IMG/VR virus record: IMGVR_UViG_3300034198_015007
Span: 1-34,287 of that record
Strand: one strand, 5' to 3'
DNA: 34,287 nt
Origin: a virus
Below the pieces are notes generated by a model, which saw only the letters and a list, made by a program, of their open reading frames with translations, had not been told where the DNA came from and did not search any database. The position numbers were made by a program, and so were the translations under genes. Positions 1,298 through 24,281 of the stretch are shown piece after piece (position 1 is the stretch's first letter; each line of letters opens with the position of its first letter).

Positions 1298-1309
1298 AAT
1301 TAAAAACAA

Positions 1310-2485: not shown

Positions 2486-2496
2486 TATTTATTACC

Positions 2497-6211: not shown

Positions 6212-6414
6212 AATGTATTAAAGGATATCCAGGATATTTAAATGAAGGTGATGTTTATTCTGTTAAAAAAATAACAGAAAAAGGTAATTATATTCTTTAT
6301 GGAGCTTCACCTCCTTACCCATATACTTCATTTGATAAAAATAGATTCGAAGAAATTAATTTAGATGCCATAGTTTGGGACCCTGAATATAATTTAGTAG
6401 AAAATGAGTTATAA
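6202..6414 (+). CDS. Small beta-rich phage protein (70 aa)
   Basis: MYVKCIKGYPGYLNEGDVYSV followed by a YILYG strand and SFDKNRFEEI looks like the small SH3-like barrel proteins found in many phages, which have no known function. It overlaps the gene before it by 10 bases and the polymerase gene after it by 11, so it is tightly coupled to replication genes. Confidence 0.75.
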   Translation: MYVKCIKGYPGYLNEGDVYSVKKITEKGNYILYGASPPYPYTSFDKNRFEEINLDAIVWDPEYNLVENEL

Positions 6415-8155
6415 AACCTGTTATACCCAAAGACTTAATAATAATGATTACTTAATTCATTTATGGACTGATGAGGGATATTTTAAATATAATTGGTCTT
6501 ATTACGCCTATGAGGAATGTTCTGAAGATGAATCTGATTCTAATATTAGAGGATTAAAACATGAAACTTTAAAAAAAGTAAGAAATTGGCATAAAGATAA
6601 TCCTAAACTTCATTTCCATGACATGAAACCTTATCAAAGGTTTTTAATTGATAGATTTAGAGATAATGATGAACCTTCAACATCTCATAAAGAAATATTT
6701 TTTGACATCGAAATTGAAATGGGGGGTGCTTTAACTAAAGAATATATTGAAAGCGCCCCCAAACCTGTCACATCAATTGCTTGGTGGTACAAACAAGAAG
6801 ATATATGGGAAATTCTATTATTAGATCCTAAACAAGAAATTGAAAGTTATAAACAAAATAATATTAGAATTCATTCATTTAAAAGTGAATCTGAATTATT
6901 ATTATTTTTTCTGGAAAGATTAAGAAAAATCCAACCCAATATATTAATAGGATATAATAGTGATTATTTTGATATTCCTTATCTTTATTTTAGAATGTGT
7001 AAAATCTTTGATAAAGAAGTAGCTAGTATGTTATCTCCTATAAATAGAATTATAAATGAATCTGAATACTCAGACCACAGATGGATAACTATAGCAGGAA
7101 TTGAATCTTTAGACTATATGAAATTACATAAAAAATATAGTTGGAAAGATGAACCTTCATATTCTCTAGATTATGTAGGAAAGAAATATGTAAAAATGGG
7201 TAAAATAAAATATGATGGGAGTTTAGATAGATTATTTAAAGAAAATAAAACTAAATTTATTGAATATAACTTTCGAGATGTTGAGATTATTAAGAAATTA
7301 GATGAAAAATTTCAATATATTTCAATTACTAAAAACTTAGCTCATAAAGGAAAGATTAATTATTCAGATGTTTATAAAAGTAGTTTAATTCATGATGGTG
7401 CTATCTCATCTTATTTATTAAACCAAAATATCATTCCCCCCTCTAGAGATAGAAATCCTATAACTAAAGAAAATTATGCTGGTGGGTTTTTATTTTGCCC
7501 TAAAGCTGGGATATATAAATATATGTTTGATGAAGATTTAACATCCCTATATCCCTCAATTATAATGTCTTTAAATATTGGTAAAGAAACTTACGTAGGT
7601 CGTATCTTAATTGATGATGAAAAAGTATTAGTAGGTAAAGCTATAGTTAAAGGTAAGAAAACTGATAAACATATTTATAATTGCAGGTATGGTTTAAGTG
7701 ATCTCAAACAAATGGGCCCCGATAGAATTTTAACCATTCAAAATAGTAAACGTAAAAATTCTCAAATTACTGTAAGGGATTTAATTGATGTCATCCATAA
7801 AAATAAATTAACTATATCAGCTAATGGAGTTATGTATAGAACTAATTTTGATTCAGTATTCAAAACTATTTTGAATTTATGGTTTAATGAAAGAGTTTTA
7901 TATAAAAATAAAATGAAGGCTGCTTATAAAGCTGGCAATAAAGAAGAAGGAGAGAAATATCATTTATTACAGTACACTATAAAAATCTTATTGAATTCAC
8001 TCTATGGTGCAACAAGCTTATCAAGCTTTAGGTATGGTAATGTGATAATGAGTGAAAGTATCACATTATCGGGTCAACGTATCATCCAAGAAAGCGCAAC
8101 TTTTATAAACAAACATATAAATAAAGTAATTAAAAATCAAATACAATTAACATGA
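6404..8155 (+). CDS. DNA polymerase family B, N-terminal chain (exonuclease, palm A, fingers)
   Basis: N-terminal part (583 aa) of a T4 gp43-like polymerase. Proofreading motifs are intact: Exo I EIFFDIEIE, Exo II IGYNSDYFDIPYL, Exo III YNFRDVEIIKKL. Polymerase motif A is DLTSLYPSIIMSLNIG, and motif B is KILLNSLYGATS in the fingers. The chain then runs to NKHINKVIKNQ and stops with TGA at 8153-8155. In T4 gp43 the matching stretch leads within about ten residues to motif C. Motif C is instead encoded in the separate gene at 8434. With 583 + 311 residues the two chains add up to a full polymerase. Both chains look undegraded, so a working heterodimer is likely. The stop overlaps the next ATG (ATGA). 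Confidence 0.95.
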   Translation: MSYKTCYTQRLNNNDYLIHLWTDEGYFKYNWSYYAYEECSEDESDSNIRGLKHETLKKVRNWHKDNPKLHFHDMKPYQRFLIDRFRDNDEPSTSHKEIFFDIEIEMGGALTKEYIESAPKPVTSIAWWYKQEDIWEILLLDPKQEIESYKQNNIRIHSFKSESELLLFFLERLRKIQPNILIGYNSDYFDIPYLYFRMCKIFDKEVASMLSPINRIINESEYSDHRWITIAGIESLDYMKLHKKYSWKDEPSYSLDYVGKKYVKMGKIKYDGSLDRLFKENKTKFIEYNFRDVEIIKKLDEKFQYISITKNLAHKGKINYSDVYKSSLIHDGAISSYLLNQNIIPPSRDRNPITKENYAGGFLFCPKAGIYKYMFDEDLTSLYPSIIMSLNIGKETYVGRILIDDEKVLVGKAIVKGKKTDKHIYNCRYGLSDLKQMGPDRILTIQNSKRKNSQITVRDLIDVIHKNKLTISANGVMYRTNFDSVFKTILNLWFNERVLYKNKMKAAYKAGNKEEGEKYHLLQYTIKILLNSLYGATSLSSFRYGNVIMSESITLSGQRIIQESATFINKHINKVIKNQIQLT

Positions 8156-8409
8156 ATAAATTTCAAATTAAATCTGGTGTAATAATATCAGCTAATAGTG
8201 TAATTATTTCTGAAGAAACTTTAAATGAGGCTTTTAATTTATGGTCAGATAAAGAAAAAAATCTTTTTAAAAAGATATTAAAGCAAGGTGGTTTGGTAAC
8301 TATAAAAGGAGTTAGATATAATATTACTAATGTGGATTCAAATTATGAATCTGAAAATATTTTATCTTGGTTACCTACATCTAGTGATACTTATAGTGAG
8401 GAAGAGTAA
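8152..8409 (+). CDS. Hypothetical protein located between the two polymerase genes (85 aa)
   Basis: Begins at the ATGA overlap with the N-terminal polymerase chain. It has strands (IKSGVIISANSVIIS), a helix (ETLNEAFNLWSDKEKNLFKKILKQ) and strands (GGLVTIKGVRYNITNV), and ends in an acidic tail (SDTYSEEE). It resembles no polymerase segment and no HNH, GIY-YIG or LAGLIDADG nuclease. It may be a cargo gene that arrived with or after a lost homing endonuclease, or a factor that helps join the two chains. Function unknown. Confidence 0.7.
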   Translation: MNKFQIKSGVIISANSVIISEETLNEAFNLWSDKEKNLFKKILKQGGLVTIKGVRYNITNVDSNYESENILSWLPTSSDTYSEEE

Positions 8410-8420
8410 GATATTTTTAT

Positions 8421-8428
8421 TATATTTA
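8421..8428 (+). promoter_or_regulatory. Promoter -7 element before the C-terminal polymerase gene
   Basis: TATATTTA five bases before the ATG at 8434. The expected TTTG at about 8397-8400 is absent (the bases there are TGAG), so it is a weaker or different-class promoter. It would give the second polymerase chain its own transcript. Confidence 0.4.
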
Positions 8429-8433
8429 AATTA

Positions 8434-9369
8434 ATGAAGTATTTAGAGGATTGCCCATTATTTATAAAAGGAGAAGAAGATAATGAAAATTATGTAGCTT
8501 ATATGGATACTGACTCTGTATATGTTGAAGCTGAACCTCTTTTAAGATATCTTCACCCTAATTTTGAAAATATGAATGAAGAAGAAAAAGATAATGCTCT
8601 TGAAAGTGTCGCTTTAAAATATCAAGATTTAATTACTGAATATTACTCTGAAATGGCTCTAAATATATTTAATGTTTCATCTCATAGGTTTGAAATGAAA
8701 ACTGAATGTACTATTAGATCTGCATATTTTAGAGCTACTAGAAGATATGCTCAATGGATATCTAAAAAAGAGGGTATATATAAAGATGAAATGGATATCA
8801 AAGGATTGGAATTCATGAAAGCTAATTTTCCTCCAATATTTGGTGAATTTTTTGATAAAATTTTAAATTTAGTTTTGAAAGGTTCTCCTCAATTCGAAAT
8901 TGATGATTTAATTTTTAATTTTAAAAAAACATCTTTAGGAAAAGAATTAAATTATATTGAATTAGGCAATCCCACTTCAGTAAAAACTCTAGATGATTAT
9001 ATAGCTCAAAAACCGAAACCTGGAGAGATATTTTCATCATTTGCTTCAGGAGCTCCAGCTCCTGTAAAAGCTTCTATTCGATATAATGATTTATTAACAT
9101 TTTGGGGTTTAGATAAAAAACATTCTAAAATAGTGCAGGGTGATAAAATTAAATGGGTTTATTTTAAACCTAATCCTTATCGAATAGAAGCTCTAGCATT
9201 TTTAGATTTTGATTTACCTGATAAAATTAAAGAATTGTTAGATGAATATACTGATAAAACTAAATCATTTGAGTCTATACTTGAAAGTAAATTAGAAGGA
9301 TTTTATGATGATTTGGGATGGAAATTAAATCTAAATCCTTATTTAACTAAATTTTTTAATTTTGATTAA
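8434..9369 (+). CDS. DNA polymerase family B, C-terminal chain (palm motif C and thumb)
   Basis: A 311-residue continuation of the polymerase. Motif C is YVAYMDTDSVYVEAE near residues 27-41, which holds the two catalytic aspartates. It is followed by the KKxY-like palm/thumb stretch FRATRRYAQWISKKEG and MDIKGLEFMKANFPP. The C-terminus ends LTKFFNFD, an aromatic tail like the one T4/RB69 polymerases use to bind the sliding clamp, whose gene starts 10 bases downstream. The split falls in the palm between motifs B and C, so neither chain can be active alone. Split gp43 genes are known from some T4-like Aeromonas phages, and split family B polymerases from some archaea. The start at 8434 gives a 26-residue lead-in to motif C. 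Confidence 0.93.
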   Translation: MKYLEDCPLFIKGEEDNENYVAYMDTDSVYVEAEPLLRYLHPNFENMNEEEKDNALESVALKYQDLITEYYSEMALNIFNVSSHRFEMKTECTIRSAYFRATRRYAQWISKKEGIYKDEMDIKGLEFMKANFPPIFGEFFDKILNLVLKGSPQFEIDDLIFNFKKTSLGKELNYIELGNPTSVKTLDDYIAQKPKPGEIFSSFASGAPAPVKASIRYNDLLTFWGLDKKHSKIVQGDKIKWVYFKPNPYRIEALAFLDFDLPDKIKELLDEYTDKTKSFESILESKLEGFYDDLGWKLNLNPYLTKFFNFD

Positions 9370-10455: not shown

Positions 10456-10749
10456 ATGTTAAAAGCAATTTATAACGCTGTTATTATCCAGCCTATGGAA
10501 TTAGAAGACACTATGTCAGGTTCCATTATTATCCCAGATATGGGGAATGAAAAAAATAAAACAGGTAAAGTAGTAGATGTGGGGCCAGGAACATACTCAG
10601 CTACAGGTGTTTTATTACCAACTGTATTACAACCTGGAGATGTAGTAATTTTACCCACAATGGGATTTACCAAATTTGAATATAAAGGTATTGAATATTG
10701 GGTGGGCCCCGAAAATCAAGTGTTAGGAGTTATTAAAAACGAAGAATAA
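10456..10749 (+). CDS. groES: GroES co-chaperonin
   Basis: A 97-residue Cpn10. It starts LKAIYNAVIIQPMELED, then carries a mobile loop (about residues 18-35) with SGSIIIPDMGNEKNKTGKV, where III is the GroEL-contacting hydrophobic triplet. VDVGPG and LQPGDVVILP match the barrel and dome, and FEYKGIEYWVGPENQVLGVI closes the fold. It would cap the GroEL encoded three bases downstream. A phage copy can adapt the folding chamber to phage proteins, as T4 gp31 does with host GroEL. Confidence 0.95.
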   Translation: MLKAIYNAVIIQPMELEDTMSGSIIIPDMGNEKNKTGKVVDVGPGTYSATGVLLPTVLQPGDVVILPTMGFTKFEYKGIEYWVGPENQVLGVIKNEE

Positions 10750-10752
10750 GAT

Positions 10753-12387
10753 ATGAAGAAAATTGTAACTGTAGGGCCCGAGGCTCGAAAAAAATTAATT
10801 AAAGGTATTGATACTTTAGCAGACGCAGTTGTATCAACATTAGGTCCTAATGGACGTAATGTAGTATACTCACAATTTGGAACTATTCATTCTACTAAAG
10901 ATGGAGTTTCTATTGCTAAATATATTGATGAATTAGAGGATCCAATTGAAGAAATTGGAGTTAAAATGCTTAAACAAGCCGCTACTAAAACCGCTGATTT
11001 AGCAGGGGATGGTACTACTACATCTACCTTATTAGCTAGAGAGATCATTAAACAAAGTATTAAATATCTTAATTATGGAAGTAATGCGGTTGATATTAAG
11101 AAAGGATTAGAGGGAGCTACTAATGAGATTATTAGTACCCTAAGAAATTCCCTAAAAGAAGAAATATCATCTGAAGATCAATTAACCCAAATTGCATCTA
11201 TTTCTGCTAATAATGATAAAGAAATTGGTTATCTAATTTCAGATGCTATTAATAAAGTAGGTAGAGAAGGAGTAGTTACTATTGAAGAATCTCAATCTGG
11301 AGAAACTTATTTAGAAGTAGTAGAAGGTATTCAATTTGATAGAGGTTATAAATCTCACCACTTTGTAACTAACACCTCAAATATGACTGCTGTACTTGAA
11401 AATTGTTATATTCTAATAGCTGACCGAAAATTTTCAACTGCTAAAGATTTATTACCAATTTTAGAGGCTGTATCTACTACTAATAAATCATTACTTATTA
11501 TATCAGATGATATTGATGGAGAGGCTTTAGCTACATTAATTGTTAATAAAGTTAGAGGTTCATTGAAAGTAGTTGCAGTTAAAGCACCTGATATCGGAGA
11601 TCGTAAAAAGTTAATCTTAGAAGATATTGCAGTTTTGACTGGTGGGGTAGTATTTAGTCCTGATAAGGGGATGAAAATTGATAAATTTAGTTGGGATTGG
11701 TTAGGACAAGCTCGTAATGTTATTGTGACTAAAGATACTACAACTATTGTTGATGGTAAAGGTCAAGAAGATAAAATTAAACAACGTATTGAAGAATTGC
11801 AAAATCAAATTGAGAACTCTAAAACTCCATTTGAACAAGAAAAGTTACAAGAAAGATTAGCTAAATTTATAGGAGGAATAGCAATTATTCATGTAGGGGG
11901 AAATACTGAAACTGAAATTAAAGAGAAAAAAGATAGAGTTGAGGATGCTTTATATGCTACTAAAGCTGCTATTGATGAAGGTATTGTTCCTGGGGGCGGT
12001 GCTGCTTTAATTCACGCGTGTAAAAACCTAGAAATAGCAGGAGAAAATACAGATGTAACTATTGGTCGTAATATTATTTATCAAGCATGTTCTAAACCAT
12101 TAGAACAAATATTAACTAACGCAGGTTATAGTATAAATGATATTTATGATATTATTAATGGTGTTTTAAAATCTAAAAATACTTGGAAAGGATTTAATGT
12201 GAAAGTATCTAAAATTGTAGATATGAAAGAACAAGGAATTATTGATCCTGTTAAAGTAACTAGAATTGCCCTAGAAAATGCTGTATCAGTAGCTAAAACA
12301 GTTTTATTAACTGAATGTGTTGTGACTGAGGTAGTTAAAGAAGGTCAAGATAATAACCCAATGAATATGGGTGGTTTGTTTAATTAA
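10753..12387 (+). CDS. groL: GroEL chaperonin
   Basis: A 544-residue group I chaperonin. TLGPNGRNVVY and AGDGTTTSTLLAREI form the nucleotide site (Asp87 equivalent). DRVEDALYATKAAIDEG carries the catalytic aspartate (Asp398 equivalent), followed by GIVPGGGAAL. The apical domain is complete. The tail ends NPMNMGGLFN and lacks the repeated GGM of bacterial GroEL, so the chamber floor differs. With its own GroES it forms a self-contained folding system, which is uncommon in phages, although a GroEL is known from jumbo phage EL. The last codons carry the TTTG of the next promoter. Codon use resembles the surrounding phage genes, so recent host transfer is unlikely. Confidence 0.97.
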   Translation: MKKIVTVGPEARKKLIKGIDTLADAVVSTLGPNGRNVVYSQFGTIHSTKDGVSIAKYIDELEDPIEEIGVKMLKQAATKTADLAGDGTTTSTLLAREIIKQSIKYLNYGSNAVDIKKGLEGATNEIISTLRNSLKEEISSEDQLTQIASISANNDKEIGYLISDAINKVGREGVVTIEESQSGETYLEVVEGIQFDRGYKSHHFVTNTSNMTAVLENCYILIADRKFSTAKDLLPILEAVSTTNKSLLIISDDIDGEALATLIVNKVRGSLKVVAVKAPDIGDRKKLILEDIAVLTGGVVFSPDKGMKIDKFSWDWLGQARNVIVTKDTTTIVDGKGQEDKIKQRIEELQNQIENSKTPFEQEKLQERLAKFIGGIAIIHVGGNTETEIKEKKDRVEDALYATKAAIDEGIVPGGGAALIHACKNLEIAGENTDVTIGRNIIYQACSKPLEQILTNAGYSINDIYDIINGVLKSKNTWKGFNVKVSKIVDMKEQGIIDPVKVTRIALENAVSVAKTVLLTECVVTEVVKEGQDNNPMNMGGLFN

Positions 12388-12447: not shown

Positions 12448-13065
12448 ATGAATAAGAAACATAGTATCTTAAACGAAAAATATAGACCTGACACTTTAGA
12501 AGGGTATATATGTTCTGAGGAAAATAAAGTTAAATTCCAAGAATATATTGATAAACAAGATATCCCTCATATTTTATTGGCAGGTAAACCTGGTTCAGGT
12601 AAAACTACATTAGCTAAAATATTAATAAATAATATTGATTGTGATTATTTATTTTTGAACGCAGTAGATGAAAGAAGTATGGATGTTATGAGGGATAAAG
12701 TTAAAGCATTTGCGGCAGCAGGTTCATTTAAACCTCTTAAAATCATTGTATTAGATGAGTGTTTGGATGAAAATACTCTAGTTACAGTCCTTAGAAAAGG
12801 TGAGATTTGTAAAATTCCTATTAAAGACTTAGATGATAAGAATGATTTAGTTAAATCCTATAATGAAGAAACAAAAGAAATCCAATGGATGCCTTTTGAC
12901 TTATTTGATAAAGGAAAACAAGATTGTTATGAACTTGAATTTGAGAATGGAGAAAAGGTTGTATGTACCGAGTCTCATAAATGGTATATTGAAGATGAAT
13001 ATGGTAAACCTCTAGTAGTAACTACTAAAGAAACCATTGAAAAGGGTTATATTTTGACTGTATAA
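12448..13065 (+). CDS. Clamp-loader ATPase (gp44-like) N-extein fused to N-terminal half of a split intein
   Basis: Residues 1-104 are the start of a T4 gp44/RFC small-subunit AAA+ ATPase: LNEKYRPDTLEGY, Walker A LLAGKPGSGKTTLA (about 43-56), and Walker B KIIVLDE ending at residue 104. Residue 105 is Cys, followed by 101 residues typical of an N-terminal intein: CLDENTLVTV (block A) and GEKVVCTESHKWY (block B, T-x-x-H, intein Thr70 and His73). The frame then stops at 13063-13065. Block F, block G and the rest of the ATPase are in the gene at 14239. Trans-splicing would give a 305-residue ATPase (T4 gp44 is 319). The insertion point is directly after the Walker B glutamate, so no active ATPase forms without splicing. 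Confidence 0.93.
   Translation: MNKKHSILNEKYRPDTLEGYICSEENKVKFQEYIDKQDIPHILLAGKPGSGKTTLAKILINNIDCDYLFLNAVDERSMDVMRDKVKAFAAAGSFKPLKIIVLDECLDENTLVTVLRKGEICKIPIKDLDDKNDLVKSYNEETKEIQWMPFDLFDKGKQDCYELEFENGEKVVCTESHKWYIEDEYGKPLVVTTKETIEKGYILTV
12760..13062 (+). other. Split intein, N-terminal half (101 residues)
   Basis: Begins with the catalytic Cys1 (TGT 12760-12762) and ends with the stop codon at 13063. Block A is CLDENTLVTV; block B is CTESH. The size is like other natural N-inteins (gp41-1 type about 88, Npu DnaE 102). Confidence 0.9.
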
Positions 13066-13090
13066 AAATATCGAATATACTCATTTAGTT

Positions 13091-13117
13091 CAATCTTTTC
13101 AAGATTGGATATATTTA
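13091..13117 (+). promoter_or_regulatory. Hairpin plus promoter -7 element before the endonuclease gene
   Basis: CAATCTT (13091-13097) and AAGATTG (13101-13107) form a 7-bp hairpin with a 3-base loop. TATATTTA follows at 13110-13117 and the ATG lies six bases later. The TTTG expected near 13086 is missing. The pair could be a regulated promoter for the endonuclease and C-intein genes, or the hairpin could damp read-through from the N-intein gene. Confidence 0.45.
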
Positions 13118-13123
13118 TAATAA

Positions 13124-14239
13124 ATGGTAAACTTAAATGAAATAAAATTAAATTTAGAAACCTATCATTACCCATGGATAAATCTGATTAATGGGAGAGT
13201 CTTTGATAATAGGAATTTATTATTACAAGATTTAAAAAAATATTTATCCAAGGATGAATATAAATTCATATATCCTACAAAATATGTTTTTATTAAGAAT
13301 TATGAGATTCAAGATATCATTAATAATTCTAATATTATTAATGGAAAAATACTTTCACCATTAGATGGAAAATTTTATAATTTTAATAATATCTTGATAC
13401 ATTTTTCTCGTTTTTTTAATGATAAAGATAAAGTTCATGTTTTATATGAAATTTTTAAAGCTCATAATTTAGTTCCTAAATGTCTTTATTTTAATTCTTT
13501 ACTAGAAGTTGAGGATATTAGATATGGAAGAAAAGCTAAAACTAAACATCCTGATAATATATGTTTTAATAAATATAGTTATAAAATATCTTCCCAAGAT
13601 TATAATGAGATTCATTCATCCTATTTAAAATCCGAAGAAGTAATAACAAAACGTATTAAAAATAAAAAAGAATTTTTAAAAGATGAGTTTAAAAGGAATA
13701 AATGGATTGAAAAAACTAAAAATACTCATAAGAATTTAGATAGACCTTGGATATATAATATGAGTGATGAAGATAGAAAAATAAAAAACGCTAAATCCTC
13801 AGAATCCCAAAAAAGGAATATTTTAGAAGGAAAATTTAATCCTCAAAATAATTATAGAACTAAAAGAAGAATTGAGTTATTGAGAGATGGTAAAATATTT
13901 TATTTACGAAGTAGTTGGGAGGTTTGCTTTTTTATATCTCATCCTAATTTAGAGTATGAAAGTTTAAGAATAAAATATAATACTTTAGGAGAGAATAAAA
14001 TATATATTCCTGATTTTATAGATGCCTCAAATAAAATTATATATGAATTAAAACCTAAAAGGCAGTATATAAGTCAAAAAGATAAAATGAATGGAGCAAT
14101 AAAATGGTGTATTGAGAATGGTTATAAATTTATTTGGGTTAATGAATATAATATTCTAAAATATATTGACCCTATTATTTGTTCTCATGAAGATTATTTA
14201 TTATATTACAATAAAATGTTAAAAGGAGTCATTAAATAA
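13124..14239 (+). CDS. Free-standing putative homing endonuclease (PD-(D/E)XK/Vsr-like)
   Basis: A 371-residue basic protein lying between the two halves of the split intein. A central basic helix region has KSSESQKRNILEGKFNP and NNYRTKRRIELLRDG, resembling DNA-binding parts of phage homing endonucleases. The C-terminal domain shows an endonuclease core: LRSSWEVCFF (Glu), YIPDFID (Asp) and IIYELKPK (E-x-K), then a helix KMNGAIKWCIENGYKFIWVNE. This fits a PD-(D/E)XK-type fold, related in layout to Vsr-like EDxHD and I-Ssp6803I enzymes. No LAGLIDADG, HNH or GIY-YIG motif is present. It would cut intein-free clamp-loader alleles and spread the element. Its stop overlaps the ATG of the C-intein gene (TAATG), and AAGGAG sits about 12 bases before that ATG. 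Confidence 0.72.
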   Translation: MVNLNEIKLNLETYHYPWINLINGRVFDNRNLLLQDLKKYLSKDEYKFIYPTKYVFIKNYEIQDIINNSNIINGKILSPLDGKFYNFNNILIHFSRFFNDKDKVHVLYEIFKAHNLVPKCLYFNSLLEVEDIRYGRKAKTKHPDNICFNKYSYKISSQDYNEIHSSYLKSEEVITKRIKNKKEFLKDEFKRNKWIEKTKNTHKNLDRPWIYNMSDEDRKIKNAKSSESQKRNILEGKFNPQNNYRTKRRIELLRDGKIFYLRSSWEVCFFISHPNLEYESLRIKYNTLGENKIYIPDFIDASNKIIYELKPKRQYISQKDKMNGAIKWCIENGYKFIWVNEYNILKYIDPIICSHEDYLLYYNKMLKGVIK

Positions 14240-14361
14240 TGATAAAATTAAAAATAAAATCAGTCAAAAAATTAGAAGACAAAAAGAATGTATATGATCT
14301 TACAGTAAGTACTAATCATAATTTCTTTATAGGAGATAAAAATGAAATATTAACTCATAAT
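14239..14361 (+). other. Split intein, C-terminal half (41 residues)
   Basis: The gene starts MIKLKIKSVKKLEDKKNVYDLTV and continues with STNHNFFIG (block F) and ILTHN (block G). The next residue is Cys, the +1 nucleophile (TGT 14362-14364). The size agrees with natural C-inteins (about 36-40). Confidence 0.92.
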
Positions 14362-14967
14362 TGTACCCATGTACTTCAAGCGAGTCAAGTAATATTACTT
14401 AATATGATGGAGACCTTTAGTTTAAATACTAGATTCATTCTAACAGGAAATTACCCAGAGAGATTAATTGAACCACTTAGAAGTAGATGTCAAGAATTTA
14501 ATTTGGAACCTCCTTCAAAAAAAGAAATAGCACTTCACATTGATAATATCCTTAATACTGAAGGTATTAAACATACCGAGAATGATGTGATATATTTAGT
14601 TAAAAAATTCTATCCTGACTTCAGGAGAATGATTAATGCTTGTCAAAAATATACAGTAGACGGTAAAATTAAATTAGATTCAAGTGTTGAGACTTTATCT
14701 AATTATAAAGAAGCAATATTAAAAATCTTATCTAAACCTGATTCTAAATCTTTAACTAATATCAGACAAATTCTAGCGGATGCTGATTTAAATGATTATG
14801 ATGAAATTTATAGATTTTTATTTGATAACCTCAAAAGTTTTACTCAAGATAAAGAAGGGTTAATTATTATTAAATTAGAAGAATATTTATATCATTCACA
14901 AACTCGAGTAGACAAAGAAATTAATTTTTGTGCTTTTATAGCAAGTATATTAAACATTTTAAAATAA
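14239..14967 (+). CDS. C-terminal half of split intein fused to clamp-loader ATPase C-extein
   Basis: After the 41-residue C-intein, the remaining 201 residues are the second part of a gp44/RFC-like ATPase. CTHVLQASQVILLNMMETF follows Walker B directly, as EFD/EAD-x-x-x-x-x-x-Q do in T4 gp44 and RFC. NTRFILTGNYPERLIEPLRSRC contains sensor 1 and the S-R-C arginine-finger motif. A helical collar domain completes it. Only the spliced protein has Walker A, Walker B and SRC together. The ATPase loads the gp45-type clamp encoded at 9380. ATG 14239 overlaps the endonuclease stop, and an AAGGAG lies upstream, a rare visible Shine-Dalgarno in this window. Confidence 0.93.
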   Translation: MIKLKIKSVKKLEDKKNVYDLTVSTNHNFFIGDKNEILTHNCTHVLQASQVILLNMMETFSLNTRFILTGNYPERLIEPLRSRCQEFNLEPPSKKEIALHIDNILNTEGIKHTENDVIYLVKKFYPDFRRMINACQKYTVDGKIKLDSSVETLSNYKEAILKILSKPDSKSLTNIRQILADADLNDYDEIYRFLFDNLKSFTQDKEGLIIIKLEEYLYHSQTRVDKEINFCAFIASILNILK

Positions 14968-14972
14968 AAAAT

Positions 14973-15212
14973 ATGGAACCAGGAATGCAAGCCAATGTTA
15001 GTTTAACTAACACAATCAAAATTTTAACCCCAAGTGGTAATGATGTAGTTAGCGAGGGATTTATCCTTCGTAGAGTGTCTAAATTTTTAACAGGAACATC
15101 AGAGGATGGAATTATTCCTATTCCTTGTTTTTATGACATTATGACAGGTGAAATTTTAACTGAACTCCTTCCCAAAGAGATCAGAGCAGAATATGAAAGA
15201 GAAAAAATTTAG
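14973..15212 (+). CDS. Hypothetical protein in the clamp-loader operon (79 aa)
   Basis: I place the start at ATG 14973, six bases after the preceding stop. An upstream ATG at 14928 would force a long overlap with the ATPase. The product is a compact beta-rich domain: ANVSLTNTIKILTPSGNDVV, GFILRRVSKFLTG, and DGIIPIPCFYDIMTGEIL, ending in a charged helix. It lies between the two clamp-loader subunits and overlaps the small-subunit gene by 20 bases. Function unknown. Confidence 0.75.
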   Translation: MEPGMQANVSLTNTIKILTPSGNDVVSEGFILRRVSKFLTGTSEDGIIPIPCFYDIMTGEILTELLPKEIRAEYEREKI

Positions 15213-15621
15213 TATTTTTGATTGGGTAAAAGAAGTAACATATAATAAAACCCCATGGGAAAACTTTACAGATGAGCAAAAAAGTACTTTAAATATATTT
15301 ATGCTTAATAGAATTTTAAGTATGAATATTAATTATTTAGAATTAGTAAATTATTTACAAACTATTCCTTATCAATCAATTGAAAGTTATTATAAAATAT
15401 ATGTTGATCTTTTACCCAAGAAAAGTATTTTTAATAAGTATATCAAGTCTGAAAAAGATAATATTAAACCTGAATTACTTACATTATTAGCTTCATATTT
15501 TGAATGTGGGACTAGGGAAATTCGAGATTATTTAGATTTTTTAGATAAAAATGAATTAATAGAGATTCTCACACAAATGGGTAAAAATGAAAAAGAAATT
15601 AAGAATTTATTAAAGAAATGA
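15193..15621 (+). CDS. Clamp-loader small subunit, gp62-like
   Basis: A 142-residue helical protein. FSIFDWVKEVTYNKTPWENF and TLNIFMLNRILSMN resemble the N-terminal part of gp62-type subunits in T4-like phages. The later stretch ELLTLLASYFECGTREIRDYL with LDKNELIEIL parallels T4 gp62 (kLLAKRYqvNTNDAinY). It would form the single non-ATPase subunit of the 4:1 loader with the spliced gp44. It is shorter than T4 gp62 (187). Position directly after the ATPase supports the call, which rests on short motif similarity. Confidence 0.7.
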   Translation: MKEKKFSIFDWVKEVTYNKTPWENFTDEQKSTLNIFMLNRILSMNINYLELVNYLQTIPYQSIESYYKIYVDLLPKKSIFNKYIKSEKDNIKPELLTLLASYFECGTREIRDYLDFLDKNELIEILTQMGKNEKEIKNLLKK

Positions 15622-17088: not shown

Positions 17089-18531
17089 ATGAATAAAAAT
17101 GGTTATATTCCTCGTGAACAGCGAAAAAAAATACTCTTAATAACTGATGATATTAGAATGCCATCAGGAGTAGGAACTGTAGGAAAGGAAATTGTTATAG
17201 GAACTGCCCATAGATATAATTGGGCTGTTATTGGAGGGGCTATAAACCACCCAGATCTAGGCAAAAGATTTATTTTAGATCAAGATACTAATATAAATGC
17301 TGGTATTGAAGATTCAAGTGTAGTTTTATATCCTTCTAATGGTTATGGTGACCCCTCTGTATTAAGAACTATTATCAAAATGGAGAATCCAGATGCGATT
17401 TTCTTAATTACAGATCCAAGATATTTTATTTGGTTATTTAATATGGAAAATGAAATCCGTACAAAAATTCCTATTGTATATCTCAATATATGGGATGATC
17501 TACCTGCTCCTTTATGGAATAAACCTTTCTATGAAAGTTGTGATGCTTTATTAGGGATTTCAAAACAAACAGTTAATATCAATAAATTAGTTTTAGGTGA
17601 TGAGGCTAAAAATAAAATTATAGATTATGTACCTCATGGTTTAAATTCTGAAATTTTTAGACCTTTAGATGAAACTGAGGAGCAATCTAAATCTTTTATT
17701 GAATTTAAAAACAGAATTTTTAAAAATAAAGATTATGAATTTGTAGTATTTTTTAATTCACGTAATATTAGAAGAAAACAAATCCCTGATACAATCTTAG
17801 CATTTAAAGTATTCTATAATTCATTACCAGCTGATAAAGCTAAAAAATGTGCTTTATTATTACATACTGAACTAGTATCAGAACATGGTACGGATTTAGA
17901 TGTTATACTTAAAGATTTGGCTCCTGAATTACGTTCAAATGTAATAGTGACTAATTCTAAATTTAATTCAACTGAAATGAATTATCTTTATAATATGTCT
18001 GATGTTCAAATTTTATTAACATCTAATGAAGGTTGGGGATTGTCTTTAACTGAAGCTTTATTAACCGGATTACCTATTATAGGAAATGTAACAGGTGGAA
18101 TTCAGGACCAAATGAGATTTGAAGATGAATCAGGAAATTGGATTGAATTTAATGCTGATTTTCCTTCCAATCATAGAGGTACTTATTTAAAATGTAGTAA
18201 ATGGGCTTTTCCAGTATTTCCACGTAGTTTATCTATTCAAGGTTCTCCTCCAACACCTTATATTTTTGATGATAGATGTTCATGGGAAGATGCGGCTAGT
18301 AAAATTAGTATAGTTTATAATATCCCTAAAGAACAAAGAAAAGAATTAGGTTTAAAAGGTAGAGAATGGGCTATTAGTGATGAAGCAGGTTTCACCCAAC
18401 AACATCAAGCACAAAGAATAATTAAAAACCTTGATAAATTATTTGATACTTGGAAGCCTCGAGTTAAATATGAATTAATAAATGCTACTAAATATTCTAG
18501 ACCCACATTAAACCATAAATTGATTTATTAA
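17089..18531 (+). CDS. Glycosyltransferase, GT-B fold (GT4-like)
   Basis: A 480-residue retaining-type glycosyltransferase. The N-terminal Rossmann half starts KILLITDDIRMPSGVGTVGKE. The linker has VPHGLNSEIFRPL. The C-terminal half has VVFFNSRNIRRKQIPDTILAF and the E-x7-E donor site EGWGLSLTEALLTGLP followed by GNVTGG. It probably transfers a hexose from an NDP-sugar. It opens the cassette, two bases before the next glycosyltransferase. Acceptor unknown. Confidence 0.9.
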   Translation: MNKNGYIPREQRKKILLITDDIRMPSGVGTVGKEIVIGTAHRYNWAVIGGAINHPDLGKRFILDQDTNINAGIEDSSVVLYPSNGYGDPSVLRTIIKMENPDAIFLITDPRYFIWLFNMENEIRTKIPIVYLNIWDDLPAPLWNKPFYESCDALLGISKQTVNINKLVLGDEAKNKIIDYVPHGLNSEIFRPLDETEEQSKSFIEFKNRIFKNKDYEFVVFFNSRNIRRKQIPDTILAFKVFYNSLPADKAKKCALLLHTELVSEHGTDLDVILKDLAPELRSNVIVTNSKFNSTEMNYLYNMSDVQILLTSNEGWGLSLTEALLTGLPIIGNVTGGIQDQMRFEDESGNWIEFNADFPSNHRGTYLKCSKWAFPVFPRSLSIQGSPPTPYIFDDRCSWEDAASKISIVYNIPKEQRKELGLKGREWAISDEAGFTQQHQAQRIIKNLDKLFDTWKPRVKYELINATKYSRPTLNHKLIY

Positions 18532-18532
18532 T

Positions 18533-19834
18533 ATGAATAAAAATACATTTTTTATAAGTTGCCCCATTGATTGTTATTCAGGATATTCAAGTAGATCTCG
18601 TGATTTAGTTAAAGCTATAATTGAATCTGATAAATATGATGTTAAAATTATTCCTCAAAGGTGGGGGGATACACCTTGGGGTTTTATTGATGATAATCCT
18701 GAATGGAGTTTTTTAAAAGATTATATCTATCCTCATCCTAACTTGCAAGAACAGCCTGATATTTGGATGCAAATAACAGTACCTAACGAATTTATACCCA
18801 TAGGTAAATTTAGCATAGGATGTACCGCAGGAATGGAAACTACTTTAGTAGATGGTTCTTGGGTTGAAGGAGTTAATAGAATGGATTTGACTTTAGTATC
18901 ATCCAAGCATTCTAAAACTTCATTCATGAACTCAATTTATCAAAAACAAAATGTAGGTGAAATTAAAGTAAATAAACCTATTGAAGTATTATTTGAGGGA
19001 TGTGATATTGATATTTATAAAGTATTAGATAAACTGCCTAATATTGATTTAGTAAAAGATTTGAATTCAATTCAAGAATCGTTTTGTTATTTATATGTAG
19101 GTCATTGGTTGAAAGGAGATTTTGGTGAAGATAGAAAAAATACTAGTTTATTAGTTAAGTTATTTTTAGAAACTTTTAAAAATAAAACTAAAAAACCCGC
19201 ATTAATACTTAAAACAAGTCAAGGTACTAGTTCTTATATAAGTAAACATCAAATTTTAAATATTATTGATGCTATTAAAGAATCTACCAATTCAAATAAT
19301 TTACCTAATATTTATTTACTTCATGGAGAATTTTCAGATGAAGAAATGAATGTATTGTATAATCATCCTAAAGTTAAAGCCATGGTTAATTTAACTAAAG
19401 GTGAAGGATTTGGAAGACCTTTATTGGAATTTAGTCTAGTTAAAAAACCAATCATAACAACTAATTGGTCTGGGCATTTAGATTTCTTAAATCTTGATTA
19501 CACAACTTTACTACCAGGAACTCTAACTAAAGTTCACCCTAGCGCTGTAGTACCTAATATGATTTTACCTGAAAGTTCTTGGTTTACAGTTAATAATGGA
19601 ACAGCTGCATATTATCTTAAAGATGTTTTCGAGAATTATAAGAACTATGAGATTAATGCCAAGAGGCAAGCCCGACATAGTAAAGAGAATTTTACATGGG
19701 AACATATGTCAACTAAATTAGAATCGATTTTAGATAAATACATCCCAGATTTACCTAAAAAAATTGAATTAAAACTTCCTTCTCTTCCAAAATTAGAATT
19801 ACCTAAATTAAATATTAAGAAAAATGATGCCTAA
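18533..19834 (+). CDS. Glycosyltransferase, GT-B fold (GT4-like)
   Basis: A 433-residue protein. It begins FISCPIDCYSGYSSRSRDLVKAI. The middle has LTLVSSKHSKTSFMNSIY and the donor domain has FCYLYVGHWLKGDFGEDRKN. The E-x7-E site is KGEGFGRPLLEFSLVKKPII followed by TNWSGHLDFL. The C-terminal 25 residues form a repeated proline-leucine tail (LKLPSLPKLELPKL), perhaps a docking segment. It overlaps the next gene by 11 bases. Confidence 0.88.
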   Translation: MNKNTFFISCPIDCYSGYSSRSRDLVKAIIESDKYDVKIIPQRWGDTPWGFIDDNPEWSFLKDYIYPHPNLQEQPDIWMQITVPNEFIPIGKFSIGCTAGMETTLVDGSWVEGVNRMDLTLVSSKHSKTSFMNSIYQKQNVGEIKVNKPIEVLFEGCDIDIYKVLDKLPNIDLVKDLNSIQESFCYLYVGHWLKGDFGEDRKNTSLLVKLFLETFKNKTKKPALILKTSQGTSSYISKHQILNIIDAIKESTNSNNLPNIYLLHGEFSDEEMNVLYNHPKVKAMVNLTKGEGFGRPLLEFSLVKKPIITTNWSGHLDFLNLDYTTLLPGTLTKVHPSAVVPNMILPESSWFTVNNGTAAYYLKDVFENYKNYEINAKRQARHSKENFTWEHMSTKLESILDKYIPDLPKKIELKLPSLPKLELPKLNIKKNDA

Positions 19835-20291
19835 AGATCAAATAAACATTTGCACTAGATGTTCTTCTGATGCATGTTATATTCAAGAAGTTAATAACGT
19901 TACTCTAAAATCCTGTTATGGATGTGGTTTCCAAACCACATCCGAATGGGTTAGAGACTCAGAATTAGTAAATCATATGTTAGAGACTTTTCCTAACTTA
20001 TATAAGGAATTAGCGGGTGAAGATGAAAATGGTCATATTTGGTTTCCTACTACAGTAAATTTACCTGATAAAGGTATGGTTTTTGTTGATGGAAGTTCTG
20101 AATCACCTTCTTGGGCTGCTGTTAAAGCTATACCAATGTCTGAAACTGAAAAGATAAAATTTGAAAAGAAAGGAAAAACCTATAAATTTAAAATGGATAT
20201 GGTAAATATTAAATATTACCCATTTGAGAAAGGTTTTATGGATGCTTTAGAATATATTGGATTATTTGAAGAAGATAAACATGAAAATTGA
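19824..20291 (+). CDS. Zinc-finger protein of unknown function (155 aa)
   Basis: The N-terminus has two Cys pairs: ICTRCSSDAC and SCYGCGF, a likely C4 zinc ribbon. The rest is a mixed domain with HIWFPTTVNLPDKGMVF and a C-terminal helix FEKGFMDALEYIGLFEE. Similar small proteins occur next to replication or structural genes in T4-like phages, but no function is known to me. The codons for CGFQTT form a long hairpin (19920-19943). A start at 19827 is equally possible. Confidence 0.75.
   Translation: MMPKDQINICTRCSSDACYIQEVNNVTLKSCYGCGFQTTSEWVRDSELVNHMLETFPNLYKELAGEDENGHIWFPTTVNLPDKGMVFVDGSSESPSWAAVKAIPMSETEKIKFEKKGKTYKFKMDMVNIKYYPFEKGFMDALEYIGLFEEDKHEN
19920..19943. repeat. 11-bp inverted repeat inside a CDS
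   Basis: GGATGTGGTTT and AAACCACATCC are perfect reverse complements separated by CC. The hairpin lies in the second Cys-pair codons of the zinc-finger gene and is G+C-rich compared with its surroundings. No T-run follows, so it is not a terminator. Confidence 0.8.
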
Positions 20292-20910
20292 TTATGCTTT
20301 AACATTATGTAATGAAGAAGAGGAAATTAAGAAATTAATTCCTTTTCTTCTAAAACATAAACGATCTGAAGATGAAATATATATTTTATTAGATAAACCT
20401 AAATGCTCTTTTTCTTTATTAGAATATTTATATGAACTTTCATCCTCAAATATTATTACTTTAAAAGAAAGTGCTTTTAATGGTAATTTTGCAGATTGGA
20501 AAAATGAACTGATAGGAATGACTAAGGGAGATTATATATTTAATATTGACCCAGATGAAATTCCCCATGAATATTTAATTACTAATTTACATTTACTACT
20601 TGAACAAAACCCCACAATAGATTTATTCATAGTACCCCGTATCAATACTGTTGAAGGTATAAGTGAAGATCATCTAAAAAATTGGAGGTGGTCTATAAAT
20701 AAAAATAATTGGATAAACTTTCCTGACTTCCAATCTCGTATATTTAAACGTTCAGATAATATTAAATGGGAAGGTAAAGTACATGAAAAAATTATGGGTG
20801 TTAAGAATTATACTTTTCTACCTGAGTTGGAACATTGGTGTTTATATCATCCCAAAACTATAGAAAAACAAGAAAAACAAAATAATTTATATAATGAGAT
20901 ATCAAAATAA
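20281..20910 (+). CDS. Glycosyltransferase, GT-A fold (GT2-like)
   Basis: A 209-residue GT2-like enzyme from ATG 20281, which overlaps the previous stop by 11 bases; the in-frame ATG 20257 would add eight atypical residues. The N-terminus is MKIDYALTLCNEEEEIKKLI. NFADWKNELIGMTKGDYIF leads to the metal-binding D-x-D in NIDPDEIPHEYL. The C-terminal WEGKVHEKIMG resembles the WaaE/KdtX-type lipid-core transferases (W-x-G-x-x-H-E). The acceptor is unknown. Confidence 0.85.
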   Translation: MKIDYALTLCNEEEEIKKLIPFLLKHKRSEDEIYILLDKPKCSFSLLEYLYELSSSNIITLKESAFNGNFADWKNELIGMTKGDYIFNIDPDEIPHEYLITNLHLLLEQNPTIDLFIVPRINTVEGISEDHLKNWRWSINKNNWINFPDFQSRIFKRSDNIKWEGKVHEKIMGVKNYTFLPELEHWCLYHPKTIEKQEKQNNLYNEISK

Positions 20911-21547
20911 TTTAAACGACCCTGAAGTAATTAGAAATTTAAATAGTGAAGTAAAAAGATATGATATTATCAATTATTTGATTGATAAATATAATTTAGT
21001 AAACTATTTAGAAATAGGAGTATTCCAAGGAGAGAATATTCGGAAAATAAAAGCTCCTCATAAAGATGGAGTAGACCCTGGAGTTGAAGGATATGTAGTC
21101 CCTGAAGTAAATTATCCCATGACCTCAGATGCTTTTTTTGAATTAATTAAAGGGCATGATGAAATTAAATATGATATTATTTTTATAGATGGTTTACATC
21201 ATGCTGATCAAGTTGAGAAAGATATAAAAAACGCTTTAGACCACATTGTTGAAGGGGGTTTTATTATTTTACATGACTGTAATCCAGTTAGTTATGAAGC
21301 ACAATTAGTACCTAGGCAAACCATTGCTTGGAATGGTGATGTATGGTTGGCATTTGTCGATTTTAAATATTCTTACCCAAACATGGAATGCTGTGTAGTA
21401 GATACTGATTTTGGTGTTGGTGTTATTAAAATAGGAAATAAACAAATCAATTTATTAAAAAGAATCTGGGATTGGGGTTATTTTGAATCAAATAAAAAAC
21501 AACTACTTAATTTAATCACTTGGGATGAATTTAAAACAACTCATTAA
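20894..21547 (+). CDS. SAM-dependent methyltransferase (class I, Methyltransf_24-like)
   Basis: A 217-residue Rossmann methyltransferase. Motif I is YLEIGVFQGENIRKI, the post-I region has DPGVEGY, and IIFIDGLHHADQVEKDI gives the D-G-x-H typical of sugar O-methyltransferases such as Methyltransf_24 or CmcI-like enzymes. GGFIILHDCNP is the motif III strand. It would decorate sugars laid down by neighbouring transferases. It overlaps its neighbours by 17 and 23 bases. Confidence 0.88.
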   Translation: MRYQNNLNDPEVIRNLNSEVKRYDIINYLIDKYNLVNYLEIGVFQGENIRKIKAPHKDGVDPGVEGYVVPEVNYPMTSDAFFELIKGHDEIKYDIIFIDGLHHADQVEKDIKNALDHIVEGGFIILHDCNPVSYEAQLVPRQTIAWNGDVWLAFVDFKYSYPNMECCVVDTDFGVGVIKIGNKQINLLKRIWDWGYFESNKKQLLNLITWDEFKTTH

Positions 21548-22331
21548 TAAATCCGTTTATGGTATAATAGGTTATATTTCATCTCAAGAGGATTTAGACC
21601 TATTAGAACAATATATCCTTTACAACTTACCAGTTTTAAAAGAATTTAAACAAGTAATTGTTACCACTAATTATAGTAGTGGTAGATCTTATCCCTCATA
21701 CCAAACTCAAAATAAAAAATTATGGAAAAAGTATTTTCCTGATTGTATTATTTTAGATTCTGTAGTAAATAGAGGTCATAATTTTGGAACAGCTGATTTA
21801 GATAATCTAATATTTGAGTATTGTAAAGAAAATAATATAGAATGGCTTTGTAAGGGGGCAAATGATATGATTTTTGAAGAATCAATTTTAAATAAAGAGA
21901 TTGATGAAGCTGATTTTTATTATTTGAATGGAATTGGATATGGTGGAATGATTAAATATGATTTTGATTTTAATAGAATCATAAATGAAGATTTTTATCC
22001 TCAAACTAATTTTTATTTTATAAATATATCTAAAATAGATTATATAAACAATAAATTTTATTTAAACGAAACATATGAATATATTCAATCTATTCCCAAT
22101 TATAATGGAAAAATATGGGAATATATTAATGGATGGTCTTGTGAAAGTTTCTTAAAAGAATGTATTCAAAGAAATAAACTTTCTAAATATCACCTACTCC
22201 CTATAGAAAAATATTATACCTTATTACAATTAATAAAATCTCAAAACATTCATGATTCAAGCCATAAAAATATAATGGCTGAAGGAATATGTCATTTTCA
22301 ATTTCCTAATCAAACAATAATAAAAATATGA
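21525..22331 (+). CDS. Putative glycosyltransferase, GT-A-like (268 aa)
   Basis: Resembles a nucleotide-diphospho-sugar transferase in layout: VYGIIGYISSQEDLDLLEQYI, then FKQVIVTTNYSSGRSY, then VNRGHNFGTADLDNLIFEYC. The last matches the N-R-G-x-x-x-G-x-x-x-x-N region that precedes the metal site of GT2-like enzymes. WLCKGANDMIFEE stands where the D-x-D is expected but has N-D, a weak version. The rest is aromatic-rich. Family not firmly identified. An 8-bp inverted repeat lies at 21662-21684 within the gene. Confidence 0.6.
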   Translation: MNLKQLINKSVYGIIGYISSQEDLDLLEQYILYNLPVLKEFKQVIVTTNYSSGRSYPSYQTQNKKLWKKYFPDCIILDSVVNRGHNFGTADLDNLIFEYCKENNIEWLCKGANDMIFEESILNKEIDEADFYYLNGIGYGGMIKYDFDFNRIINEDFYPQTNFYFINISKIDYINNKFYLNETYEYIQSIPNYNGKIWEYINGWSCESFLKECIQRNKLSKYHLLPIEKYYTLLQLIKSQNIHDSSHKNIMAEGICHFQFPNQTIIKI

Positions 22332-23002
22332 ATTTAAATGAGTTATTTAATAAATACCAATCCGATAAAGGAGATGGAGTTACTGTAAGACATAATTATG
22401 CTTACTTTTATGAAAAATTTCTTGAAAATAAACGAAATGAAATTAAATTAATATTGGAAATAGGAATATGTGGGGGTAAATCCTTAAAAGCATGGTATGA
22501 TTATTTTCCTAATGCTATTATTATAGGTTTAGATATAGATGATAAATCTATATATAATAATGATAGAACTTTTACATTTAAATTAGACCAATCGAATCAT
22601 ACTCAACTAGAACATTTTGTTAAAGAATGTGTTAAAAATGGGTATAAATTTGATTTTATCATTGATGATGGAAGTCATCAAATGGCTGATCAACAACTTA
22701 CTTTAGGATATTTTTTCCCTATTTTAAAATCAGGTGGGGTATATTTTTTAGAGGATTTACATACATCTTTAGTTGATAATGGTTTTTTTCTTTATGGAAA
22801 ACCTATAGAAATTTATAACAATAGATCTAATACTACTTTATATTATTTAATGGAATCCATGTCTAGTATTTATTTAAATGAAGATCAAAATAAATACCTT
22901 CAAGAGAATATTAATACTATTGATATACATAATCAATTCAACATATATCAAGAACCTTGGTTTAAATATAGAAGTATAACTTCAGCTATAACTAAAAAAT
23001 GA
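22328..23002 (+). CDS. SAM-dependent methyltransferase (sugar O-methyltransferase-like)
   Basis: A 224-residue class I methyltransferase. LFNKYQSDKGDG and HNYAYFYEKFL are the lead-in typical of macrocin or tetracenomycin sugar O-methyltransferase relatives. Motif I is ILEIGICGGKSLKAW. IIGLDIDD is motif II, and FIIDDGSHQMADQQ gives the D-D-G-S-H metal and catalytic site. GGVYFLEDLHTS follows. Overlaps by ATGA at both ends indicate coupled translation. Confidence 0.9.
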   Translation: MNLNELFNKYQSDKGDGVTVRHNYAYFYEKFLENKRNEIKLILEIGICGGKSLKAWYDYFPNAIIIGLDIDDKSIYNNDRTFTFKLDQSNHTQLEHFVKECVKNGYKFDFIIDDGSHQMADQQLTLGYFFPILKSGGVYFLEDLHTSLVDNGFFLYGKPIEIYNNRSNTTLYYLMESMSSIYLNEDQNKYLQENINTIDIHNQFNIYQEPWFKYRSITSAITKK

Positions 23003-23589
23003 AAAAAATGAAAATAATTCAAATAGGAGCCAATAATGGAAAAAATAATGTTTTTGAATTTATTAAAGAAAATCAAAAATCTTTAGAGTTAGTAATATTA
23101 ATAGAACCCATACCTTTTATTATTGATGAATTGAAATCCCAATATAAAGATATAAATAATGTTATAATAGAAAATATAGCTATAACTGATGATGAAAATC
23201 TTAACCAAATGATTTTATATTATTTAGGAAATAGTAATTATGAAGTAAGCTCATTTAGTAAGAGTCATGTAATAACTCATAAACCTCCAGGTTCATCTTT
23301 TCCTTTAGAATCATTAGAAGTTTCTTGTTTAACTATTAATAAGATTATGACTAAATATAATTTAGAAGTGATAGATTATTTATTTATAGATACTGAAGGA
23401 TTAGATGTTCATATAATAGCTAGTATTGATTTTACAAAATATAAAATTAAAAATATCATATTTGAAACGGTCCATACTGATGGAGCGTTCAATAGAGGTG
23501 AAAATTTTAGTGAAATATGTAATTATTTAAATCAATTAGGATATAATTTATCAAATATAGATCAATCAAATATAAAAGCTAGTCTATGA
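22999..23589 (+). CDS. FkbM-family methyltransferase
   Basis: A 196-residue protein with motif I IIQIGANNGKNNVFEFI, ILIEPIPFIIDELKSQY (acidic SAM ribose contact), and the FkbM signature VIDYLFIDTEGLDVHIIASIDF. These enzymes usually O-methylate sugars or polyketides. It is the third methyltransferase in a row. The start may be 22999 or 23008 (second Met). Confidence 0.9.
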   Translation: MKKMKIIQIGANNGKNNVFEFIKENQKSLELVILIEPIPFIIDELKSQYKDINNVIIENIAITDDENLNQMILYYLGNSNYEVSSFSKSHVITHKPPGSSFPLESLEVSCLTINKIMTKYNLEVIDYLFIDTEGLDVHIIASIDFTKYKIKNIIFETVHTDGAFNRGENFSEICNYLNQLGYNLSNIDQSNIKASL

Positions 23590-24281
23590 AAATAATCTAT
23601 AGAATATCTGATGCAGGTTATAATAAAGTAAAACCAGCATATATACATAATAGTGCTTGTTTAAAAAACTTTTGTAAGGTCTTTTTTGACCATATATCTG
23701 ATATAAGGATAATTGCAGATAATTGTAGTGAAAAAACTATAGATATGATTAAATATTATATTGATCCAATATATATTGAAAAGGTATCTATAGGTCATGG
23801 TGCGGGGACATTTAACTTAGCTTTAGATAAGGCTTTAAAATTAAATGATGATGAGATTGTTTATTTTGTAGAAAATGATTACCTCCATCTACCCGATTCA
23901 TCTAAAATATTAAAGGAAGGGTTTGAATTAGGAGCATCATTTGTTTCTCTTTATGACCATCCAGATAAATATATAGACCCATCTCAAGGTGGAAATCCTT
24001 ATTGTTTAGGAGGAGCTGAAGATACTAGGGTATATTTAACTAAATCATGTCATTGGAAAATCACAAATAGTACAACAATGACATTCGCCTCTAAAGTATC
24101 CACTTTAAAAAGAACTGAATATATTATGAGAAAACATACTCAAGGAACTTATCCTAATGATTTTCAAATGTTTTTAGAATTAAGAGAGAATAATGAATTA
24201 TTAATAACCCCCATACCGGGTTATTCAACTCATGGAGAATTAGCTTGGTTATCACCTTTAATAAATTGGAGTCAAATATGA
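23586..24281 (+). CDS. Putative glycosyltransferase, GT-A-like (231 aa)
   Basis: Begins MKIIYRISDAGYNKVKPAYI. DIRIIADNCSEKTIDMI, GAGTFNLALDKALKLNDDEI and VYFVENDYLHLPDS lead to the E-N-D metal-binding position of GT-A folds. SHWKITNSTTMTFASKVSTLK and YPNDFQMFLEL follow as acceptor-side helices. I recall similar unnamed proteins from other phage glycan clusters, but not their substrate. It overlaps both neighbours by four bases. Confidence 0.68.
   Translation: MKIIYRISDAGYNKVKPAYIHNSACLKNFCKVFFDHISDIRIIADNCSEKTIDMIKYYIDPIYIEKVSIGHGAGTFNLALDKALKLNDDEIVYFVENDYLHLPDSSKILKEGFELGASFVSLYDHPDKYIDPSQGGNPYCLGGAEDTRVYLTKSCHWKITNSTTMTFASKVSTLKRTEYIMRKHTQGTYPNDFQMFLELRENNELLITPIPGYSTHGELAWLSPLINWSQI

Follow-up and report, generated by a model that had tools for sequence, protein, structure and literature searches.

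The clamp-loader gene of a T4-like phage is fractured at its Walker B motif by a split intein, with a nuclease gene lying between the two halves. The gene is carried by IMG/VR record IMGVR_UViG_3300034198_015007, a 34-kb (34,287-nt) metagenomic contig that is a fragment of the genome of a virus of bacteria and that, at its full length, we call the window. We consider it very probable that this gp44 gene carries a mobile split intein together with a homing nuclease, and that its product is made whole by trans-splicing.

The locus consists of three open reading frames (ORFs), all on the plus strand; their coordinates and lengths, as given in an original prediction made from the sequence letters, were all verified in the window. 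The first ORF (12448-13065, 205 amino acids) encodes residues 1-104 of a gp44-like clamp-loader ATPase (12448-12759), with Walker A (GKPGSGKTT) and Walker B (IIVLDE) motifs, followed from the Cys codon at 12760 by a 101-residue N-intein (12760-13062) that contains Cys1 and the block B sequence CTESHKWY and ends at a stop codon (13063-13065). After a spacer of 58 nt (13066-13123) comes a putative homing endonuclease gene encoding 371 amino acids (13124-14239), the stop codon of which shares 1 nt with the start of the third ORF (14239-14967, 242 amino acids). This last ORF opens with a 41-residue C-intein (14239-14361) bearing NVYDLTV, NHNFFIG and LTHN, and continues with a 201-residue C-extein (14362-14967), made up of Cys+1 (codon 14362) and the 200 remaining clamp-loader residues, including the SRC motif. 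A gene for the gp62-like small subunit of the clamp loader, the partner of the split protein, lies downstream at 15193-15621 (PHROG_225, 1.9e-14).

Profile matches bore out the earlier claims of a split intein, a fractured gp44 and an endonuclease between the halves. Judged against the curated NCBIfam and Pfam cut-offs, the N-intein matches TIGR01445 (intein_Nterm) with 32.2 bits (cut-off 24.5), the match beginning at Cys105, and the C-intein matches TIGR01443 (intein_Cterm) with 24.2 bits (cut-off 15.6), the match stopping at the junction LTHN|C. When the two parts are fused into a 142-residue intein, Pfam Intein_splicing scores 44.7 bits (cut-off 35.8). The residues that define the class are present, with Cys1 and a TxxH block at the N-terminal side and His-Asn followed by Cys at the C-terminal side. 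For the exteins, PHROG_168 (clamp loader of DNA polymerase) aligns residues 1-105 of the N-half with profile positions 4-109 of 314 (3.1e-34) and residues 47-237 of the C-half with positions 114-307 of 314 (1e-33). Since these matches cover adjoining parts of the profile, the halves are complementary pieces of one clamp loader. The joined extein is a full clamp loader of 305 residues that aligns over most of its length with structures of archaeal RFC and T4 gp44 (E-values of 4e-33 and 3e-32 against PDB 8uk9 and 3u5z), and this whole-length match, a Gp44_lid domain (33.8 bits) and the downstream gp62 partner gene place it in the T4 gp44 type. The junction reads IIVLDE|C...LTHN|CTHVLQ, directly after the Walker B residue Glu104, and the insertion point aligns with E110/A111 of the Walker B region of A. 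fulgidus RFC.

Broken replication genes do not always require splicing. In the same window, the family B DNA polymerase gene is split just before its TDS motif by an 85-codon ORF (6404-8155, 8152-8409 and 8434-9369). We weighed the possibility that the break at 8152-8433 is a further split intein and dismissed it, as it contains no intein motifs and the polymerase halves cover the PHROG_262 profile without loss. By analogy, the clamp-loader halves could assemble non-covalently, as split phage polymerases can, with the intein a dead remnant. We regard this as improbable, however, since the window retains all of the catalytic residues (Cys1, TxxH, His-Asn and Cys+1), which its relatives conserve as well, and a dead intein would leave tails of 101 and 41 residues within the ATPase core at Walker B. 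That the arrangement arose as an assembly artefact or chimera can be all but dismissed: although the window is a metagenomic contig of uncertain completeness, the same arrangement occurs in independent contigs from other samples, namely three with nucleases 54-60% identical to that of the window (L052-L054; loci in other contigs are given L numbers) and about 40 more.

The nuclease between the halves

The product of the intervening gene matches PHROG_15427 (endonuclease) at 2.9e-22 and, weakly, TnsA-like families and Tox-REase-7 (25.9 bits for the latter). Within its catalytic domain (13736-14236), the motifs RSxWE, (P)DF and ExKP are invariant in an alignment of 28 sequences, comprising the window and 27 relatives. 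A model of this domain based on the 28 sequences (predicted local distance difference test score, pLDDT, 89.6) is closest to TnsA (Z 8.6 over 132 residues, root-mean-square deviation 3.5 Å), followed by Vsr and I-Bth0305I (Z 5.8 for each), with weak Foldseek E-values (4.4e-2). The modeled fold, an alpha-beta core carrying catalytic E, D and ExK residues, identifies a TnsA-like PD-(D/E)XK enzyme. Membership in the EDxHD (Vsr-like) family was ruled out, because the invariant E, DF and ExK stand in place of the EDxHD motif. A full-length model built from four sequences had a pLDDT of 49.9 and was not used. Profile scans for relatives of the nuclease returned only three close ones from viral contigs and none from GTDB genomes.

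The spacer ahead of the nuclease gene may contain control elements. A hairpin (CAATCTT/AAGATTG in the window) is predicted to pair the nuclease start codon in the window, L052 and L053, and the arm sequences differ among them. Across 27 loci, the pairing of the nuclease start codon averages 0.68, compared with 0.41 at the other genes of the window (p 2.5e-4), the controls coming from this one genome. T4 intron-encoded endonuclease genes have similar start-codon hairpins, a resemblance that we take as a lead. The spacer also contains a predicted promoter-like sequence, TATATTTATAATAA. A promoter-like motif, TATATTTA, lies 12-14 nt before several start codons of the window (467, 3063, 8421 and 13110).

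Spread of the intein and an empty site

The original prediction concerned a single locus, and it missed that the element is common to dozens of phages and that the same intein allele is in part continuous. A search of IMG/VR contigs with the pattern DECL(D/E)E(N/H)T returned 68 stretches, 66 of which are clamp loaders with an intein at the Walker B site. A pattern hit in L059 proved to be a chance antisense match. The exteins of most members are 27-57% identical to that of the window, and in all 54 loci for which both halves were located the intein ends in HN or SN, followed by Cys. Inserts longer than 1 kb are present at 44 of these loci and all 44 contain the nuclease family of the window. 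In 43 of the 44, the end of the nuclease gene and the beginning of the C-half share 1-56 nt, which points to translational coupling. The other 10 inserts are short (426-542 nt) and none encodes the nuclease; eight are continuous inteins (L078, L082, L097, L104, L128 and the divergent L110, L111 and L113) and two, L075 and L119, are split without an intact nuclease. L093 is a further continuous intein.

If split inteins can persist without a nuclease, as in L075 and L119, the enzyme could be a resident free-standing gene that came by chance to lie inside an already split intein and does not drive its mobility. This too seems unlikely to us. All of the long inserts have one nuclease family in the same place, nearly always overlapping the C-half start. 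The L119 spacer still encodes FIWINESNIMEYI...NKKQLNKLKSGI, a clear remnant of the nuclease C terminus (score 114; shuffled maximum 57), and a related catalytic domain is present in the TerL split intein of the E. coli phage phiS.

Intein and extein identities are correlated (Mantel r 0.76), and several pairs depart from the trend. The inteins of L082 and L088 are 97% identical in nucleotide sequence and their exteins 72-76%; those of L078 and L071 are 91% identical in amino acid sequence and their exteins 56%; and L125 and L146 have exteins that are 74% identical and inteins that are 49% identical. Such mismatches indicate that the intein moves horizontally between phages.

An empty site is found in a sister phage, IMG/VR contig 3300042691_041091 (L003/L060), in which an uninterrupted gene encodes a clamp loader of 305 residues. 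Its flanks are 98.6% (upstream) and 99.2% (downstream) identical to those of the window. Immediately right of the junction, however, 9 of 18 bp differ (14362-14379 in the window), while the next 197 bp and the 15 bp left of the junction are identical. Differences elsewhere are rare, and the clustering is significant (hypergeometric p 1.4e-11 for 24 bp). This sharply bounded patch beside the insertion is conversion-like, in that it has the pattern expected of a short gene-conversion tract. In L003, the patch encodes STHILS with the rare codons CTC, ATC and CAC (CTC makes up 2% of Leu codons) and stands out from the 40-odd homologues that lack the intein, the nearest clade reading ATHILQ. The +1 residue is Ala or Ser in that nearest intein-free clade and Cys in occupied alleles. 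The intein-free sister phage also carries, at the end of folE (L060 2929-3750), a GIY-YIG/NUMOD homing gene that is absent from the window; about 80 bp of folE are duplicated there, and a recoded stretch adjoins.

How might the element work? We envision a mobile element, a split intein that encloses a separate gene for a TnsA-like PD-(D/E)XK homing endonuclease, that invaded gp44 of a T4-like phage. The N-half (extein residues 1-104 plus the 101-residue IntN) and the C-half (the 41-residue IntC plus extein residues 105-305) would be made separately. Once the intein halves associate, Cys1 would form a thioester, Cys+1 would attack it and Asn41 would cyclise, ligating DE to CTH and yielding the 305-residue clamp loader. 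In gp44 alleles that lack the intein, the nuclease would cut at the DE|x junction or close to it; repair would then copy in the entire cassette along with a short tract of flanking sequence.

Several points weigh against this account. Splicing and cutting, like the direction of exchange with L003, are what we infer from sequence. The cassette could have been gained by the window or lost by L003, since the L003 patch is itself atypical and rich in rare codons; that patch could represent the original recipient sequence, a variant that resists the nuclease, or the scar of a loss. The N-terminal half of the nuclease lacks a confident model and its target site is putative. An intact clamp loader, which the original prediction held would speak against a fractured gene, was found neither on the 34-kb window nor on a relative of 161,676 nt, where only the two halves are present; as the window is a fragment, an intact gp44 may lie in the rest of the genome. 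An uninterrupted frame, also named by the prediction as contrary evidence, does exist, but in a distinct strain that has a different homing gene in folE.

Continuous and three-piece alleles

The coexistence of split and continuous inteins at one site raises the question of which came first. On the intein tree, which has a distant outgroup and some poorly supported inner branches, no fewer than four changes are needed to explain the continuous state; if splitting is irreversible, 15 separate splits are required, and if the split state is ancestral within the ingroup, three re-fusions suffice. In addition to the nuclease remnant of L119, the continuous L078 has, ahead of its start-codon position, 13 nt that agree with the nuclease tail of its split relative L071 at 11 of 13 positions (P about 1e-4), and all four ingroup continuous forms have ATG or GTG at the position where the C-half starts in split relatives. 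These three features favor re-fusion or loss of the nuclease, and we think it likely from the sequences that some continuous inteins are healed split forms. A candidate nuclease remnant in L075 was not separable from shuffled sequence (score 46; shuffled maximum 47) and is suggestive only. It is also possible that, instead of healing, the nuclease inserted repeatedly at one point.

Some clamp loaders are broken twice. In L105 (a 74-kb contig), L076 and L119 (a 24-kb contig), the protein is also cut after the GK of Walker A, where a short tail resembling an N-intein follows. The middle protein opens with a C-intein whose last residues are HN|T, runs on through Walker B and finishes in the second N-intein. 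These three-piece genes, with split inteins at both Walker A and Walker B, span 599-5144 of L105/L183, 2323-4213 of L076 and 513-2527 (reverse strand) of L184; these are cases met in passing, our viral scan for the Walker A intein having been one codon out of register. The middle pieces have good TIGR01445 support in L105 and L076. Against the TIGR01443 cut-off of 15.6, the Walker A C-intein of L105 passes (17.4) and that of L076 falls below (13.1), and both match intein-bearing archaeal RFC models. The L076 contig ends ahead of the third piece. L093 has a Walker A break with a different nuclease, Vsr-like by eye; in one clamp loader, at L185 1046-3933 (reverse strand), the Walker A intein is split and comes with a Vsr-like nuclease, and the Walker B intein is continuous.

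On balance, we favor the view that phages show the Walker B allele at all steps of a gene-breaking cycle, from the empty site through the split intein with its nuclease, and the split intein with a remnant of it, to the re-fused continuous form, that some clamp loaders are in three pieces, the middle one bearing both a C-intein and an N-intein, and that split inteins are reversible states of this nuclease-driven cycle rather than dead ends.

Relation to known fractured genes

The arrangement is of a known kind. Dassa and colleagues reportedly described, in 2009, fractured genes from metagenomes, with split inteins in gp41, NrdA, NrdJ, IMPDH and others (eight enzyme types) and an EDxHD (Vsr-like) homing endonuclease said to be present in half of the loci. 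Like those genes, the locus in the window is a conserved, essential DNA-metabolism gene in phage-like DNA, interrupted by a split intein whose halves flank a free-standing endonuclease gene. It may differ in its host gene, gp44, and it differs in its nuclease, which is TnsA-like PD-(D/E)XK rather than Vsr-like EDxHD, and in the continuous and three-piece alleles of the same gene. In Klebsiella phage KP13-7 (L055), nrdA is apparently broken in two; five hypothetical ORFs separate the pieces, and these include a C-intein-like match.

Two other phage genes are similarly built. In Pseudomonas phage MIJ3, a split PolB intein surrounds an HNH endonuclease ORF (PMC6892783); as here, a phage replication gene is interrupted by a split intein with an endonuclease ORF between, but the host gene is a polymerase, the intein is another one and the nuclease is HNH. 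In Escherichia phage phiS (Krischvirus, PP449093; L063 1651-4762), the TerL split intein likewise lies right after the Walker B DE and before a Cys, and the nuclease catalytic domain is 44.5% identical to ours over 121 amino acids. The phiS element differs in having a long C-intein and a short N-intein to which the nuclease is fused. The phiS TerL halves are annotated only as two terminase proteins.

Inteins in archaeal RFC small subunits also interrupt a homologous clamp-loader ATPase at conserved ATPase motifs, and to our knowledge all of them are continuous. Their sites, RFC-a, RFC-b and RFC-c, correspond to K51/T52, A76/S77 and S138/C139 of A. fulgidus RFC (PMC2814812). Since the window site aligns with E110/A111, identity with any of these three alleles is excluded. 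Clamp-loader inteins are given only for archaeal RFC in a 2018 review, and we found no report of the gp44 Walker B site in the literature on inteins and clamp loaders, a comparison that leaves aside the locus list of Dassa and colleagues.

Elsewhere in the window, genes probably for glycosyltransferases, methyltransferases and sugar epimerases form a long series, and the phage has groES/groEL-like genes of its own (17089-25069 and 10456-12387).

Since neither half has a complete active-site region before joining, the phage should need trans-splicing in order to replicate. How split inteins arise and how they revert has so far been argued from scattered examples; with one allele that is empty, split with a nuclease, split without one and continuous, both processes become testable on a single gene. 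The natural pairs (N-halves of 100-113 amino acids and C-halves of about 40) and the three-piece genes with two inteins are also candidate orthogonal trans-splicing tools.
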